Of a stretch of 37,934 bases of DNA, positions 18,030 through 37,934 are shown one piece after another. Under the pieces are notes generated by a model. It did not search any database and was not told the origin of the DNA. It saw only the letters and a list, made by a program, of their open reading frames with translations. Both the position numbers and the translations under genes were made by a program. Within the stretch, counting starts at the first letter, position 1; every line of letters begins with the position of its first letter. Origin of the DNA: a virus; IMG/VR virus record IMGVR_UViG_3300032132_000021, positions 1 through 37,934 of that record; one strand, written 5' to 3'.

Positions 18030-18617
18030 TTAGCGGTTTCTGGATCCAAGTTTGTATCTTTTTAATGGTGCTTGGCCAATGATGCTCCAGCAGAACTTAT
18101 CAAACTCCTTGGCTTGCTGGTTATAGGCTGGATAGATTTCGGTAAGCGCAGTGAACTGCTTCAGAGCGTTGATGATCGTGCCGTGATCCCGGTTGAACAC
18201 CTTGCCGATTGAGCACAGCGTCATCCCTTTGGCCCTCAGCAGTGAGGCACAGACATAGCGGGGCCAACAGACCTCCACCTTCCGGCTTGGCCCCGTTATG
18301 TCGCCCTCCTCCAGCCCCCAGAAGGCTGTGGCTGCATCAATCAGATCAGTGGCCTCAAACAGAGCCGGCGGTGGCTCCTTGGGGAAGTTCTTTATGCACG
18401 CCTTGTTCACAGCAGCTTCCATAGGATCAGATAGTCCCTCACTTGGCCTTTTAGCTTCTTTTGGTATCTGGTTACGCAGTACCTTTTCCCCGCTCGCTTC
18501 ATATCCTCGATCATATTCTCGATGATCCAGCTCTCGCTTCCCGTTAGACACGGCTCGCTGAACTGGATTGAGTTTGGGAGAGGTTGATCGAGGATTTCCA
18601 TTGAGCTTAGCTTTCAT
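18030..18617 (-). CDS. DnaA domain IV-like DNA-binding protein (no ATPase domain)
   Basis: The protein has 195 residues. Residues about 112-155 match the C-terminal DNA-binding domain of DnaA: 'RYVCASLLRAKGMTLCSIGK' leads into IGKVFNRDHGTIINA (137-151), the counterpart of the DnaA signature around 'RDHSTV'. There is no P-loop and no AAA+ domain. Residues 1-65 are basic and may be disordered. It could be a replication initiator or a transcription factor that binds DnaA boxes. The start at 18617 overlaps the exonuclease stop by 11 bases. An in-frame ATG at 18422 is an alternative, and another frame is open at 18407-18601. Confidence 0.75.
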   Translation of the reverse strand: MKAKLNGNPRSTSPKLNPVQRAVSNGKRELDHREYDRGYEASGEKVLRNQIPKEAKRPSEGLSDPMEAAVNKACIKNFPKEPPPALFEATDLIDAATAFWGLEEGDITGPSRKVEVCWPRYVCASLLRAKGMTLCSIGKVFNRDHGTIINALKQFTALTEIYPAYNQQAKEFDKFCWSIIGQAPLKRYKLGSRNR

Positions 18618-20028: not shown

Positions 20029-20403
20029 TCAGCCATTAAGACTGAAATTCTTTGTGGTGCTTTGCACTAAATCGCTTCTTCGTAGGATATTCAGAAAGTC
20101 CTCAGCCGGCAGAGTGACGAGCCAGCCGTGTTTATTCTTGGTGTGGGCCACTACCGGGATCTTCCCCACTGGCCTATCGGCCAGCACTTGAGCCATAGCA
20201 GCCCACAGATTGAGCTTCTCGACGTTTTTAACCTCCCAGTGGATGCTGGGGAGCTCCGGACACTGAACGTCTGCTGAGGAGCCGTCTGGAGCCTTCCCGC
20301 TGAACTGCTGGGATCTGTAGGCTTTAAGGAAGCCAAACTCTCGGAGCATATCGCGCCACTGACGCTCCCCCCTCTTGCCCTTGTCTCTGCTTAGCTTCCC
20401 CAT
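20029..20403 (-). CDS. Holliday junction resolvase-like PD-(D/E)XK nuclease
   Basis: The protein has 124 residues, the size of archaeal Hjc-type and phage resolvase-like nucleases. The catalytic pattern is complete: E13 (KGKRGERQW), D45 (SSADVQC) and E57-V-K59 (IHWEVKN), followed by a helix (LNLWAAMAQVLADR) and the strand 'IPVVAHTKNKHGWLVTL'. It would cut branched DNA before packaging. It overlaps the end of the HTH gene upstream by 13 bases. Confidence 0.72.
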   Translation of the reverse strand: MGKLSRDKGKRGERQWRDMLREFGFLKAYRSQQFSGKAPDGSSADVQCPELPSIHWEVKNVEKLNLWAAMAQVLADRPVGKIPVVAHTKNKHGWLVTLPAEDFLNILRRSDLVQSTTKNFSLNG

Positions 20404-20546
20404 TGCTCCAAAGATTTAACTGGGATGCGGATGCTGCCCCCTATTTTCACGGCCTTCAGTTCCTTCCTTTTGATCGCTCTTCGGACGGTATCGGTGTGGA
20501 AGCTGAACCGCTCTGCCGCCTCCTTGACTGAAACGTGAGTCATCAT
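20391..20546 (-). CDS. Excisionase/MerR-type small HTH protein
   Basis: From ATG 20546 (or the next codon, 20543) it encodes about 51 residues: MMTHVSVKEAAERFSFHTDT, then TVRRAIKRKELKAVKIGGSI and RIPVKSLEQWGS. This is the winged helix-turn-helix of the excisionase/HTH_17 type. It could be an excision directionality factor or a transcription regulator. The GTG reading to 20615 adds an unlikely hydrophobic extension. It sits early in the lytic operon, not beside the integrase. Confidence 0.7.
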   Translation of the reverse strand: MMTHVSVKEAAERFSFHTDTVRRAIKRKELKAVKIGGSIRIPVKSLEQWGS

Positions 20547-20617
20547 CCGGTGAAGGCCAACAGAATGACCGAGATGCCGGCCCCTAGGCAGAAAGCTATA
20601 ACAACCCAGTGGCACAT
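20543..20617 (-). CDS. Possible 24-residue hydrophobic peptide
   Basis: ATG 20617 to TGA 20543 reads MCHWVVIAFCLGAGISVILL then AFTG, essentially one membrane helix. Its stop overlaps the HTH start (GGATGATGA). No ribosome site is seen. It may be a leader peptide, a tiny membrane protein, or chance. Confidence 0.25.
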   Translation of the reverse strand: MCHWVVIAFCLGAGISVILLAFTG

Positions 20618-20646: not shown

Positions 20647-20787
20647 TCATAACTTGGCCCTTTCGATCAGCCGCACCAGCACCCCGGTCATCGTTGTTCC
20701 CCAGCGTTCAGCCAGCTTCTTCAGCTTCTTTCTGGAAAACAACGGGAGCCGGTAGTGTACCGATTTCCTCTGTTCCTCTTCGTTCAT
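20647..20787 (-). CDS. 46-residue ribbon-helix-helix-like protein
   Basis: ATG 20787 to TGA 20647 encodes MNEEEQRKSVHYRLPLFSRK followed by KLKKLAERWGTTMTGVLVRL and IERAKL. The pattern of a short strand (KSVHYRLP), helix, 'GTT' turn and second helix fits the Arc/MetJ RHH fold. A strong AGGAGG site lies 11 nt before the ATG, inside a small CAGCC/GGCTG hairpin. It is the first gene of the leftward lytic set, so it is likely an early regulator. Confidence 0.6.
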   Translation of the reverse strand: MNEEEQRKSVHYRLPLFSRKKLKKLAERWGTTMTGVLVRLIERAKL

Positions 20788-20879
20788 CTGTCAGCAGCCT
20801 CCTCGGCTGAGAGGTACTGTGGACACAGTGGACACAGAGGTGCAAGACCTAATCGAAAGAAAAATAAAAAAGATTTAGC
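20788..20879. promoter_or_regulatory. Divergent control region with GTGGACACA tandem repeats
   Basis: The region separates the leftward RHH-like gene from the rightward RHH gene. It contains GTGGACACA twice in direct tandem (20819-20827, 20828-20836). Together they match 13 of 17 bases of the palindrome in front of the integrase operon. An A-rich stretch (20860-20876) follows. I cannot assign exact -35/-10 elements. Confidence 0.55.
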
Positions 20880-21152
20880 TTGCGGCACGTAGACACAGCG
20901 CCCCTAGTGAGCTCTGTGTCTGCCGGGAAGCAACTGAAGAGAGAGAATAGGCAAGTGGTTCATTTCCGCTTTGAGGCGGATCTGAATGAATTGCTTGAGG
21001 CAGCCAGTGACTACCTCGGAACCACAAAGACGCAGCTAGTTGAGGACTGTATCCGGCTTAATCTGGATAAGGTTGTGGCTACTCAAGAGCGAAGTAAGGC
21101 CGGAGCGGCCAAGCTGTTCAAAAAGGTACGCCGTAAGGCAAAGCTCAAATAA
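20880..21152 (+). CDS. Ribbon-helix-helix regulator (only plus-strand gene)
   Basis: The core, VVHFRFEADLNELLEAASDY followed by LGTTKTQLVEDCIRL, has the RHH strand-helix-turn-helix pattern. The C-terminal 25 residues are very basic (KLFKKVRRKAKLK). The start is uncertain. The longest reading uses TTG 20880, and in-frame GTG codons at 20907, 20916 and 20955 exist. The one at 20955 begins just at the RHH strand and would leave the motif pair at 20889-20923 in its promoter. It is transcribed against the lytic and lysogeny genes and lies between them, so a switch repressor is a good guess. Confidence 0.65.
   Translation: MRHVDTAPLVSSVSAGKQLKRENRQVVHFRFEADLNELLEAASDYLGTTKTQLVEDCIRLNLDKVVATQERSKAGAAKLFKKVRRKAKLK
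20889..20923. promoter_or_regulatory. Inverted repeat of the GTAGACAC motif
   Basis: GTAGACACAG (20889-20898) and CTGTGTCTGC (20914-20923) are inverted copies (9 of 10), 15 bases apart. They share the half-site of the palindrome at 23478-23494. They lie at the beginning of the longest reading of the RHH gene, so they may be an autoregulatory operator if the gene starts later. A related half-site GTGTCTAC lies at 21240-21247. Confidence 0.5.
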
Positions 21153-21344
21153 TTCCTCTTTTCTCAGTCCCGTTTCATCGGAAGCCTTCAGCAAAGCCAC
21201 CGCCGTCTTGGTATCCAGTAGTGCATCCACAGCGGAGCAGTGTCTACACAGTAAACAGAGAGCACTCAAGTCTAATTTATTCACAAAGTTGTAACAAAAA
21301 AGCCCCACCGTTTCCGGCGGGGCTTGTGGTGGCTGAGGTTGGGG
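21153..21344. other. Convergent intergenic region
   Basis: This region between the ends of the rightward RHH gene and the leftward lysogeny operon holds the terminator at 21296-21325 and a GTGTCTACACAG motif at 21240-21251. Minus-strand ORFs across it look like shadows and are not called as genes. Confidence 0.5.
21296..21325 (-). terminator. Rho-independent terminator ending the integrase operon
   Basis: On the minus strand AAGCCCCGCCG pairs with CGGTGGGGCTT (10 of 11 pairs plus G-U) around a GAAA tetraloop, followed directly by a T-run. It ends leftward transcription of the lysogeny operon before the lytic region. The opposite strand lacks a T-run. Confidence 0.9.
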
Positions 21345-21536
21345 CTACAGCTTCACCGTCCTTCCCACTCTCGGGAGGTTCTGGGGGTTGGTTCTGGAGT
21401 GGATCCAGTTCTTCAGAGCTGCCTCGGCGGCATCCAGTGATTCCGGAGAGACTTGGCTCCACTTCTTCACCCTCGGATCCTTCTCTTGAGCTATCATCAA
21501 GATAAACTCTCGGGTTGCTTTTCGGTTTAGGAGCAT
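21345..21536 (-). CDS. 63-residue helical hypothetical protein
   Basis: ATG 21536 (MLLNRKATREFILMIAQEKD) lies 2 nt beyond the upstream stop. A TTG two codons earlier is less likely. The segment 'SPESLDAAEAALKNWIHSRT' is a well-formed helix. It ends the integrase operon just before the terminator. An alternative frame (21277-21576) is Pro/Ser/Gly-rich and runs through the terminator, so it is rejected. The function is unknown. Confidence 0.6.
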   Translation of the reverse strand: MLLNRKATREFILMIAQEKDPRVKKWSQVSPESLDAAEAALKNWIHSRTNPQNLPRVGRTVKL

Positions 21537-21538
21537 TA

Positions 21539-21874
21539 TCAATCTTCCTCCTTCCAGTCGTCCTCGCTCGGCTCACACTTGTCAGCTTCAGCTAGGTCAA
21601 TCGTTCTCATTTCAGTGCCCAGCTTCAGCACAGCCTTCTTCCAATCCGCTTCAACCACTGGCCAATCAACCGATAGATCCTCAAGAATCAATCTAGCCTC
21701 AAGCGAGGCGTTGAGCATCTCCGTCATCTGCTGGATTGCCACACAGCGAGGATCCTCTTGGGGGTGGGCTCCGTATGCCGTAACCAATAGGTTACCCAGC
21801 TCCATCAGTACCAGCTTGAGATTCACGCTTTGGTGGCCCCACTCGTCTGTTGTAATAGTCTTTGGTAAGCTCAT
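21539..21874 (-). CDS. 111-residue hypothetical protein in integrase operon
   Basis: ATG 21874 overlaps the integrase stop as TGATG, so it is probably translationally coupled. The protein is helical with an acidic C-terminus (DLAEADKCEPSEDDWKEED). It has no recognised domain. Being in the lysogeny operon, it may modify integration, exclusion or host fitness. Confidence 0.6.
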   Translation of the reverse strand: MSLPKTITTDEWGHQSVNLKLVLMELGNLLVTAYGAHPQEDPRCVAIQQMTEMLNASLEARLILEDLSVDWPVVEADWKKAVLKLGTEMRTIDLAEADKCEPSEDDWKEED

Positions 21875-22971
21875 CACGCCACCGCCTTTCTGATGTTGTA
21901 TTTCGGGGTTTCAAGCAGCCCCACATAGCTCGCCTTGGCAACCTCGGGAGTGTTGCCCAGCATCTCAGCCGCCAGCCAGACGCTCTTGGTCTGCTTGGCC
22001 ACTTGGCTCCCGAAATACTTCCGGAGCTCATAAGCCTTCTTACGGTTCGTGAAACCCAGCTCCTTCAGCTTGGCGTTGAGCCGCCTCCACAGATCCGTCC
22101 TCCGCTCCGTCTTGTGGCCTCTGAGGATATAATCCCCAGCCCACAACCCGGACGCATTGTGACTGAGGAATAGCTCCCGGTCATTGTCACTCTGGTAGGG
22201 GAGCTGCCTCACCGCCTTGGTCTTGGAGATCTCAACGGAGAGGCAATGCTCCACCAGCCAGTGCCGCTTGGCTCTGGCTGCCTCACTGTTGCGAAGGCCA
22301 TACTCGGCCATCAGCTTGAACGCTATGTGAAGCTGTGGATCCGAGTCGGCTATGCCGTAGAAGTAATCCCAAGCCTTGACGTAGCGGCCATCTGATGCCG
22401 GCTTGAATCCCTTCAGCTTTGCAGCCGGCGGCTTGACCTTGGTGAAGTCAAAGCTCTCCGGCAGCTCGTAGTGCTCCAGCATATCGCTGGCAAACACAGA
22501 GCGAGCTTGGCGAAGGACTGAGCCGGCCCGATCCTCACGCTGCTGCTGTAGCTCCTCATCCTCATCATCGCCCTTGCGCTTCTTCAGCCAAGCCTCAGCC
22601 AGCTTCTTGGTGAGCTTGGTGGCCGGCGCTGAGAGGCTGATGCCGTTCTCCCGGCAGAAGATCCCAAGACAGCACTTGTAACCTTTGGCTGTGTTCGCCT
22701 TCACCTTGGTGAGCCTCTCAAAGATAACGAGGATCTGGAGGATTGTCATTGCCGCCTTCTCGCCCTTCTTCTCAATCTTGCTGGCAACCTCAAAGTTGCC
22801 GGCTGCTTGAGTCTCCAGCCAGATCTTCACTCGATCCGCTGCCACTAGCCGGTCAGTTGTCTCCGGTGCGTGCTTCTTTGTCTTGCCGCCGATCTCGCAG
22901 CGGTACTGCCAGCGGCCAGTAGGTAGCTCCTTGAGGCGCTTAGCTATCTGTTTCTTGTTTGGTATCTTCAT
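21874..22971 (-). CDS. int: Tyrosine recombinase (integrase) with atypical active site
   Basis: The protein has 365 residues. The N-terminal basic region (about 1-70) is an arm-binding-like domain, about 75-170 is SAM-like core binding, and 190-365 is catalytic. R227 (AEYGLRNSEAARA), K250/K252 (ISKTK), R317 (YELRKYFGS) and the nucleophile candidate Y349 (KASYVGLL) are present. The usual His before Arg (HxxR) is Tyr314, and the 'LGH' His is Asn340. An AGGA ribosome site in a 22-bp leader shared with 22992-23219 lies before the ATG. It likely recombines attP at 23748-23791 with a host tRNA-Lys gene. Confidence 0.85.
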   Translation of the reverse strand: MKIPNKKQIAKRLKELPTGRWQYRCEIGGKTKKHAPETTDRLVAADRVKIWLETQAAGNFEVASKIEKKGEKAAMTILQILVIFERLTKVKANTAKGYKCCLGIFCRENGISLSAPATKLTKKLAEAWLKKRKGDDEDEELQQQREDRAGSVLRQARSVFASDMLEHYELPESFDFTKVKPPAAKLKGFKPASDGRYVKAWDYFYGIADSDPQLHIAFKLMAEYGLRNSEAARAKRHWLVEHCLSVEISKTKAVRQLPYQSDNDRELFLSHNASGLWAGDYILRGHKTERRTDLWRRLNAKLKELGFTNRKKAYELRKYFGSQVAKQTKSVWLAAEMLGNTPEVAKASYVGLLETPKYNIRKAVA

Positions 22972-22993
22972 ATCTGTGTTTCCTTTCTGTGTT
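22972..22993 (-). repeat. Shared 22-bp leader, copy 1 (before integrase)
   Basis: The 22 bases directly before the integrase ATG are identical to those before the 22992-23219 gene (23220-23241). They contain two ACACAG units around an AAAGGAAA ribosome site. The first ten bases also precede the 23242-23424 gene (23425-23434). Confidence 0.9.
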
Positions 22994-23219
22994 ATTTATT
23001 CAATTCAAACCAACCCCCGTTACTCTCTCGGCCTACAACTTTCCCAGTCTCGGAATCAACCTCAAACAGATGAGGCTCAAATAAAGAGCCGGCGGGATGT
23101 AAAAGAGTGTTTCGGGCTTCGTTCAATTCAGATAAACGCAGCCTAGCCGACTCCTTAGTTTCAAACGGCCCCCAAGTAGCTTGAGAACTCTTTAACTCGT
23201 AATGTGTTTTATTTTTCAT
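22992..23219 (-). CDS. 75-residue protein, paralogue of 23242-23424
   Basis: The sequence starts MKNKTHYELKSSQATWGPFE and shares 'Y.(L/V)K...(T/I)WGPFET.E(S/A)A...L..L' with its neighbour, so the two are tandem duplicates. It has a beta-helix-like N-terminal region and a longer C-terminus (LFEVDSETGKVVGRESNGGW). It lies between the lysogeny promoter and int. The function is unknown. Size and position could suit an integration helper or small inhibitor. Confidence 0.6.
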   Translation of the reverse strand: MKNKTHYELKSSQATWGPFETKESARLRLSELNEARNTLLHPAGSLFEPHLFEVDSETGKVVGRESNGGWFELNK

Positions 23220-23241
23220 ATCTGTGTTTCCTTTCTGTGTT
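23220..23241 (-). repeat. Shared 22-bp leader, copy 2
   Basis: This copy is identical to 22972-22993 and sits directly before the ATG at 23219. The two copies show that gene and leader were duplicated together or that the leader is under selection. Confidence 0.9.
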
Positions 23242-23424
23242 TTATATTTCCGTTTCAGTCTCTCCTTCTATCTTGAACACTTTAACTGACCAAGGAACAT
23301 ATGCACCGGTTAGCCTTTTAAGCTGTGCCAGCTTAGTCTCGGCAGCTTCCAGTGTTTCAAACGGCCCCCAAATAGCGGGACTAAGGCCGTATGTCTCTTT
23401 GACTTTGTAGTATATTTTTATCAT
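23242..23424 (-). CDS. 60-residue protein, paralogue of 22992-23219
   Basis: The sequence starts MIKIYYKVKETYGLSPAIWG and shares the WGPFET(L/K)E(A/S)A core and following helix with its neighbour. It is the first gene of the leftward lysogeny operon, downstream of the palindromic promoter at 23472-23500. The function is unknown. Confidence 0.6.
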   Translation of the reverse strand: MIKIYYKVKETYGLSPAIWGPFETLEAAETKLAQLKRLTGAYVPWSVKVFKIEGETETEI

Positions 23425-23471
23425 ATCTGTGTTTGTGTTTTCAGCTCGGCTTACTCGCCTTCGCTGGGGGG

Positions 23472-23500
23472 ATCTTCGTAGACACTGTGTCTACTGTCAA
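23472..23500 (-). promoter_or_regulatory. Candidate promoter with palindromic operator in the spacer
   Basis: On the minus strand a perfect -35 box TTGACA (23500-23495) is followed by the perfect 17-bp palindrome GTAGACACAGTGTCTAC (23494-23478) and then GAAGAT (23477-23472), a weak -10 with three of six consensus bases. A 17-bp spacer is optimal for sigma-70-type promoters. A protein bound to the palindrome would block or gate the promoter for 23424-21345. Confidence 0.65.
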
Positions 23501-23598
23501 TAGAAAAGATCAAATGCTTTTAGTGTTGTTTACTAAGGTTTTTGATGATTCTGAAAAATACTTTGAGAAGGTACGCCCTAATTTTTGCTAATCTGAAA

Positions 23599-23619
23599 AG
23601 TACGGTTCTGGGTACGGTT
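23599..23619 (+). repeat. Putative integrase arm-type sites, pair 1
   Basis: AGTACGGTT (23599-23607) and GGTACGGTT (23611-23619) are direct repeats spaced 12 bp start to start. The same pattern occurs on the other side of attP (23840-23860). A less similar copy, GGTACGCCC, lies at 23570-23578. Confidence 0.6.
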
Positions 23620-23747: not shown

Positions 23748-23791
23748 TACCCCGGGTAGGACTTGAACCTACAACCAATTGATTAAGAGTC
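23748..23791 (-). other. attP: Candidate attP: 3' half of a tRNA-Lys(CTT) gene
   Basis: Read on the minus strand, this holds tRNA bases 30 to 73: anticodon loop CTCTTAA (anticodon CTT), anticodon 3' stem TCAAT, variable TGGTT, T-stem GTAGG, T-loop TTCAAGT, CCTAC, acceptor CCGGGGT and discriminator A. The 5' half does not fold: the 5' anticodon stem mismatches and no ACCCCGG partner exists, so this is not a working tRNA. Tyrosine integrases commonly use such tRNA 3' ends as attachment cores. It lies near int and between arm-like repeats. Confidence 0.75.
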
Positions 23792-23839: not shown

Positions 23840-23860
23840 AGTACAGTTTTAAGTACAGTT
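23840..23860 (+). repeat. Putative integrase arm-type sites, pair 2
   Basis: AGTACAGTT (23840-23848) and AGTACAGTT (23852-23860) are exact direct repeats, again 12 bp start to start. They differ from pair 1 by G to A in the centre. The second copy covers the last codons of the nuclease gene at 23849-24304. Confidence 0.6.
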
Positions 23861-36912: not shown

Positions 36913-37934
36913 TTAAAATCCAAAGTCATTGCGAGTGTAGCCCACTGTGTAGTTGTCCGGCACGATCCTCATTATCTTGGCCGTCTGGTTCGTTTCCGCA
37001 TCCCGCGCCACAGTCAAAAGTCTGTCGCCTTCTCCCGTCTCAAGCTGGGCTTTCCCGTACTGCCGCTGCCTCTTCAGCATATCGGCTGTGCCGTACTTGA
37101 TCAGTGCATTGTCTATGCCGCTGATCATCGGTGCGTCTGTGTCAGAAACCAGTGGCCGGATCTTCTGCTTGCCCAAGATCACCAACTGAACCGGGCCGGT
37201 GGCATCATACTCTGGCCGGCGGTACAGCTTCACCCTCTGAAACTCCGCCTTTGTCTCCCAACTGTACCAGTAAAACTTGTTGTAGCCGGTGATGTTCTTG
37301 ACCGTCACAGTGTCCGTTGTAGCCTCTTTTGAGAGCGAAGTGATCTCTGAGTAGCTTTCAAAGCTGGAGTTGACTGACGGGCTTGCTGCGAGCGTTAAAG
37401 TCTCCTTGTAGATCCTAGTGGGATCCCCCAGCAGCCGGCCAACTATCTCGACCTTCTTCCCAGCATCATCCGCATCGGCCAGATCAAAAAATAGATTGCC
37501 GTTAAGGAGATCAAAGTTGATACCCACAGAAGATATAGGAGAAAAGCCGCTGGCAGTGCCAGACTCCGTAAGAGCACTCGGATCCACCATATACTGCGTG
37601 ATGATATCCTCCGGCCTAAGCTCTTGATCGTCTGCCGTAATCGCCAGAACTTGAGCGATTGATTGGGGGAGAATAAGCTCATCATTGTAACCCGTTGCGT
37701 ATGCCGTTGCTGTTGCCCCAGTACCGGCCCCGCCGGTAAAGGTCACAGTGGGATTGTCCTCGTAACCGCTGCCGCTCTTGGTGAGGAGGATCTCCCCCAC
37801 CGTGTCATTAAACAGCTTGGCCGTGGCTGTTGGAGCCACATAGCCGGCTGCCCCGGCTGAGAAAGTGATTGCGGGGGCTGATGTGTAGCCGGATCCGCCT
37901 CCAGTGACCTCAATGTGGGTTACTCGCCCGTCCG
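36913..37934 (-). CDS. Junction-spanning virion protein, C-terminal part
   Basis: This is the continuation of the gene that starts at 731 on the left end. It enters from the right end and stops at 36913, 2 nt before the nozzle ATG. The piece contains both Gly-rich repeats and the C-terminal domain (FYWYSWETKAEFQRVKLYRR ... RIVPDNYTVGYTRNDFGF). A GTG at 37839 can look like a start in isolation, but the frame is open to the contig end and joins the left piece exactly, so it is internal. Confidence 0.75.
   Translation of the reverse strand, partial: DGRVTHIEVTGGGSGYTSAPAITFSAGAAGYVAPTATAKLFNDTVGEILLTKSGSGYEDNPTVTFTGGAGTGATATAYATGYNDELILPQSIAQVLAITADDQELRPEDIITQYMVDPSALTESGTASGFSPISSVGINFDLLNGNLFFDLADADDAGKKVEIVGRLLGDPTRIYKETLTLAASPSVNSSFESYSEITSLSKEATTDTVTVKNITGYNKFYWYSWETKAEFQRVKLYRRPEYDATGPVQLVILGKQKIRPLVSDTDAPMISGIDNALIKYGTADMLKRQRQYGKAQLETGEGDRLLTVARDAETNQTAKIMRIVPDNYTVGYTRNDFGF
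37367..37934. repeat. Terminal overlap, right copy (matches 1-568)
   Basis: See the left copy. The six differences from it all fall in the junction-spanning gene. Confidence 0.95.

Follow-up and report, generated by a model that had tools for sequence, protein, structure and literature searches.

The integrase operon of this virus record is preceded by a promoter-like sequence whose spacer is a perfect palindrome, and the locus raises the question of what that palindrome does. The window analysed is the whole record, 37,934 bases in length. On direct reading of the minus strand from 23500 to 23472, TTGACA is followed by the 17-bp palindrome and then by GAAGAT, exactly as the first-pass annotation had described; the interval given there, 23478-23500, covers the -35 element and the palindrome, while the GAAGAT -10 falls just outside it. 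The palindrome, GTAGACACAGTGTCTAC (23494-23478, minus strand), has 8-bp arms around one central base with 0 mismatches, and the first operon gene (23242-23424) begins about 48 nt downstream of the promoter. The elements are as follows.

23495-23500, minus strand: -35 element TTGACA of the integrase-operon promoter (direct sequence reading; TTGAC invariant in 8 of 8 sequences)
23478-23494, minus strand: candidate two-box operator GTAGACAC-A-GTGTCTAC, occupying the whole 17-bp spacer (sequence and relatives)
23472-23477, minus strand: -10-like hexamer GAAGAT (promoter table of the window and seven relatives)

It is considered probable that 23472-23500 is a sigma-70-type promoter of the integrase operon, and that the two 8-bp boxes in its 17-bp spacer, set at a 9-bp pitch, form an operator bound by a ribbon-helix-helix (RHH) repressor of the phage. 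The transcription unit concerned contains the following features.

23443-23465, minus strand: 5' leader hairpin immediately after the predicted start of transcription (relatives retain the stem and its 6-nt loop)
23422-23432, minus strand: ACACAGATATG, translation-start context of the first gene
23242-23424, minus strand: first operon gene, 60 aa, no family, variable in relatives
22992-23219, minus strand: second operon gene, 75 aa, no family
21874-22971, minus strand: tyrosine integrase, 365 aa (phrog_1, E=8e-13; alignment of relatives)
21539-21877, minus strand: gene after the integrase, 112 aa, no family
21345-21542, minus strand: operon gene, 65 aa, conserved in relatives
21300-21325, minus strand: intrinsic terminator of the operon, 11-bp stem and T run (-22.9 kcal/mol, z -5.6)

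By sequence, the operon is bracketed by the conserved leader hairpin and the strong terminator; the hairpin of the relative L028 alters the middle stem pair on both sides, which constitutes one compensatory change. The start context ACACAGATATG stands before three operon genes (22969-22979, 23217-23227 and 23422-23432, minus strand) and ends the leader before the first operon gene in all seven relatives; at one mismatch it is found 6 times in the window against 0.5 expected. The view that this is the only strong promoter-like sequence of the region holds between the first gene of the operon and attP, whereas further upstream a generic sigma-70 consensus scan gives a 10/12 match at 24408-24379 (minus strand). 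The same scan omits the integrase-operon promoter because of its -10; GAAGAT matches TATAAT at only 3 of 6 positions.

The palindrome by itself is weak evidence, since perfect palindromes with 8-bp arms and a loop of 0 or 1 occur near chance level: 5 in the window against 1.08 +/- 1.0 per dinucleotide shuffle. The position it occupies and its conservation, unlike the palindrome alone, are not near chance; TTGACN followed by a 17-bp palindrome arose once in 100 shuffles. Relatives were gathered via the integrase and via RHH1, the candidate repressor described below, and seven contigs contain the integrase with upstream DNA (L018/L035 and L021/L036 end before this region). All seven display TTGAC(A/T), two boxes in 17 bp and a -10-like hexamer; the spacer is 17 bp long in all eight sequences compared, window included, each with a binding-site-like repeat between the -35 and the -10, and in 6 of the 7 relatives the spacer element differs in sequence from that of the window.

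Window: TTGACA GTAGACACaGTGTCTAC GAAGAT
L028: TTGACA GTAGACACaGTGTCTAC GATAAT
L016: TTGACA GTAGACACaGTAGACAC AATACT
L033: TTGACT GTGTACACaGTGTCTAC TATGGT
L034: TTGACT GTGTACACaGTGTACAC TATGGT
L031: TTGACT GTGTACACaGTGTACAC TATTCT
L030 and L032: TTGACT GTAGACACaGTGTATAC AATACT

The integrase of L028 is 94% identical to that of the window; the two DNAs agree at every base from 23478 upstream across the promoter and part just downstream of the palindrome, at the start of the -10. The other six integrases are 58-61% identical, and the first genes of their operons differ too. What these promoters conserve is a pair of 8-bp GTnnACAC boxes, of either orientation, set at a 9-bp pitch so that one A separates them. 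The boxes are inverted in the window and direct in L016, and orientation has no meaning in L034 and L031, whose box GTGTACAC is itself palindromic. Palindromicity as the key feature is ruled out by the direct repeat of L016 and the tandem GTGTACAC of L034 and L031. The promoter and its 17-bp spacer element are kept in 7 of 7 relatives, but perfect palindromicity is not (L016 has the direct repeat GTAGACACaGTAGACAC); the palindrome first noticed is best read as one variant of a two-box operator.

The rule for the boxes was drawn up from the window, L015/L028, L016 and L020/L033, and was then obeyed by the integrase promoters of L030, L031, L032 and L034, none of which had been used in framing it. 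When 2.9 million viral contigs were scanned twice for TTGACW followed by two boxes, these seven were the only contigs returned. The window has 2 exact two-box elements against 0 in 100 shuffles, a count that is not independent as the box pattern was partly defined on these sequences; 80 kb of relatives has 12 against 0 in shuffles. Because the relatives are one phage lineage, the conservation comes partly from common ancestry. On comparative evidence the promoter and its putative operator are real and conserved. That the palindrome in this record is a functionless product of chance, as the abundance of its size class might allow, is strongly disfavoured by the 7/7 conservation, the exact spacing and the specificity of the collection scans, and is regarded as extremely improbable. 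A search of viral contigs for the bare 17-bp palindrome gave 12 loci, of which one is a true relative and the rest lie in unrelated sequence, several apparently intragenic; in two unrelated contigs (L005 2639-2655 and L012 6193-6209) the same palindrome lies beside a second AGACACnGTGTCT repeat, perhaps the mark of another regulator with a similar site. The DNA of the integrase-operon promoter was sought in phage records and gave no match.

A spacer-located palindrome had been proposed to serve either a repressor or an activator that compensates for a poor -10. The first element of this proposal, a promoter with an operator in its spacer, is strongly supported by all seven relatives; the second is not favoured. 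An activator, MerR-like or other, bound between the -35 and the -10 would suit the weak GAAGAT, and the phage encodes an HTH_17/excisionase-like protein (20391-20615). However, GAAGAT is peculiar to this record, and the -10 hexamers of the relatives (GATAAT, AATACT, TATGGT and TATTCT) match the consensus at 4/6 to 5/6 positions beside the same kind of element. MerR-type activators work on spacers of 19-20 bp, whereas the spacer here is 17 bp throughout, which sets the element apart from that type. On account of the better -10s and the fixed spacer a repressor is favoured, the rescue of a weak -10 is not upheld, and activation is considered unlikely.

The proximity of the element to the phage attachment site suggests another role, that of a recombination site for an integrase arm, an excisionase or an accessory factor; the attP core is about 250 bp away, with the element on its P-arm side.

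23748-23789, minus strand: attP core, matching the 3' half of a tRNA-Lys(CTT) gene (found without mismatch in five Verrucomicrobiota MAGs)
23600-23619, plus strand: candidate P-arm integrase sites, GTACGGTT twice at 12-bp pitch; the promoter lies outside them
23841-23860, plus strand: candidate P'-arm integrase sites, GTACAGTT twice at 12-bp pitch

The integrase (phrog_1) next to an attP in tRNA sequence makes up a tyrosine integrase module, and distinct candidate arm repeats, GTACGGTT at 23600/23612 and GTACAGTT at 23841/23853, flank the core with the element outside them. Furthermore, the element takes up exactly the promoter spacer in each relative, and its boxes recur at RHH genes 2.3-2.7 kb away; a recombination role is accordingly given very little credence. 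Upstream of the promoter, a short stretch (23516-23591, plus strand) is kept in relatives and can be read as a small peptide, MLLVLFTKVFDDSEKYFEKVRPNFC; it may be coding or P-arm DNA.

The operator reading gains from the distribution of the boxes, which recur around a cluster of small regulatory genes.

20391-20615: HTH_17/excisionase-like protein
20647-20787, minus strand: RHH3, small ribbon-helix-helix protein, divergent from RHH1
20819-20835: two-box element GTGGACAC-A-GTGGACAC, a direct repeat between RHH3 and RHH1
20889-20896, plus strand: single box GTAGACAC at the RHH1 5' end
20907-21152, plus strand: RHH1, a candidate repressor of the ribbon-helix-helix type whose C-terminal helix is long
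20916-20923, minus strand: inverted partner box GCAGACAC, 1 mismatch (the pair with the 20889 box is kept in L016)
21036-21230, minus strand: RHH2, 64 aa, antisense, sharing 117 nt with the end of RHH1
21240-21247, minus strand: box GTAGACAC upstream of antisense RHH2

A two-box element with at most 1 mismatch is situated between RHH3 and RHH1 in 9 of 9 sampled RHH1 loci (the window and 8 relatives). No distinct -10 stands out in the RHH1 and RHH3 promoters against which these boxes could be placed. Operator-like boxes would thereby recur at the regulator's own gene, where RHH1 or RHH3 is the regulator, as we infer; the shared boxes tie the integrase promoter to a candidate immunity region.

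RHH1 matches PHROG 876, annotated as 'transcriptional repressor'. Pfam RHH_3 matches 2 of 9 members of the RHH1 family, at best 1.9e-4, and the RHH1 of the window has no Pfam match; its model contains two main helices, the second of 39 residues, and Foldseek matches are weak (E>1), so that the support for the fold is modest. The RHH3 model shows helices at 16-29 and 33-43 after a ribbon segment that contains an R, in agreement with an RHH fold; by Foldseek it resembles MatP, AmrZ, Arc and CopG with a probability up to 0.99 and a best E of only 0.28, and RHH3 also has weak Arc-like PHROG matches. The ribbons of RHH1 and RHH3 have V-H-[FY]-R in common; base contacts in AmrZ are made by alternating residues of the ribbon, Lys18, Val20 and Arg22 (PMC3325190). 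The ribbon residues and the bases of the boxes were not seen to covary strictly. With respect to sequence homology to Arc or Mnt, the RHH1 profile found no RHH chain among solved structures and RHH3 found Mnt of P22 at E=0.17 only, the sole phage RHH match there, which leaves both outside the P22 Arc/Mnt family by sequence.

RHH2 has homologues in L016 (5887-6081), L017 (1200-1394), L018 (4693-4887), L019 and L020 (6097-6291 in each) and L022 (2663-2857), all on the minus strand, and in L032 (3478-3678, plus strand). Its start and length are conserved, at 64 aa with 66 aa in L032, and a box lies upstream in most loci. In the part that does not overlap RHH1, differences are most frequent at third codon positions and every computable pair gives dN/dS <1, a purifying pattern; for these reasons RHH2 is probably a real gene.

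The earlier suggestion that RHH proteins are the binders is plausible and is supported by the matching boxes around the RHH genes. RHH1 is the most likely repressor among them, with RHH3 perhaps acting also or instead; RHH2 or the HTH_17 protein at 20391-20615 could be the binder as well. Apart from this cluster, the C-terminal part of a 195-aa protein (18030-18617, minus strand) reads like the DnaA DNA-binding domain; it has no PHROG match.

As the phage binder is so far a candidate only, a host regulator might bind the boxes in its place. The tRNA-Lys match at attP and a terminase nearest to those of Akkermansia phages (35-36% identity) make Verrucomicrobiota the probable host group, and several of the five MAGs that match the tRNA-Lys bear marine sample names; the host is probably a marine member of the group. 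A palindromic form of the element is absent from these Verrucomicrobiota genomes with the same tRNA-Lys (0/5), and the boxes cluster around phage RHH genes, which makes a host binder improbable. RHH1 was found neither in phage records nor in the genome contigs searched for host prophages, and a search for the integrase in 384 genomes of the host class gave three distant matches only, all without boxes.

It is hypothesized that each box takes up one dimer of the phage repressor, most likely RHH1 and perhaps also or instead RHH3; with the spacer occupied by a neighbouring pair of dimers, RNA polymerase would be unable to bind or to melt the promoter. Acting at the like boxes that surround and separate the divergent RHH1 and RHH3 genes, the repressor would control its own synthesis together with the leftward early genes; the integration genes would be on at infection and off once repressor accumulates.

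The Arc operator of P22 is situated between the -35 and the -10 of the Pant promoter. Arc and Mnt are RHH repressors of a temperate phage, Arc with a spacer operator as proposed here, and RHH1 resembles Mnt in its size of about 80 aa and its long C-terminal helix; the present system differs in that its target is the integrase operon, not ant, and in its 8-bp boxes at 9-bp pitch in free orientation. Mycobacteriophage BPs gp33 also has an operator, OR, in the -35/-10 spacer of the phage promoter PR, and several two-half-site operators across the genome (PMC4557955); unlike the element here, these have 12-bp palindromic half sites and serve a different repressor and an early lytic promoter. Omega-type RHH dimers bind one per short repeat, and two repeats, direct or inverted, give high affinity (PMC9499535); binding of this kind would explain the free orientation of the boxes. 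Omega, the ParB of pSM19035, differs in its 7-bp heptads and its role in plasmid partition and copy control, the likeness being one of binding mode rather than of demonstrated sequence homology. RelB of E. coli is an RHH autorepressor with multiple short subsites overlapping its promoter (PMC2812701); relO, however, spans -10 to +17 rather than the spacer, consists of hexads and belongs to a toxin-antitoxin operon.

A phage repressor operator within a promoter spacer is hence of a kind already known. A more novel arrangement, unproven and put forward tentatively, would be a CI/Cro-like lysogeny switch composed wholly of RHH proteins, in which divergent RHH1 and RHH3, with their shared DNA-contact motif, compete for 8-bp boxes of either orientation, through which they would regulate each other and the integrase promoter; a third RHH-like protein, RHH2, is encoded antisense over the end of RHH1 and has a box of its own. 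No description of lysogeny control in this phage group was seen among the papers found; the locus offers a concrete, testable regulatory circuit for temperate phages that probably infect marine Verrucomicrobiota. The natural variants, with inverted, direct or self-palindromic boxes at one fixed pitch, would be a ready test of how far RHH repressors tolerate changes in box orientation. The ends of the record (1-568 and 37367-37934) are near-identical over an imperfect repeat of ~568 bp, suggesting a circular or terminally redundant genome.
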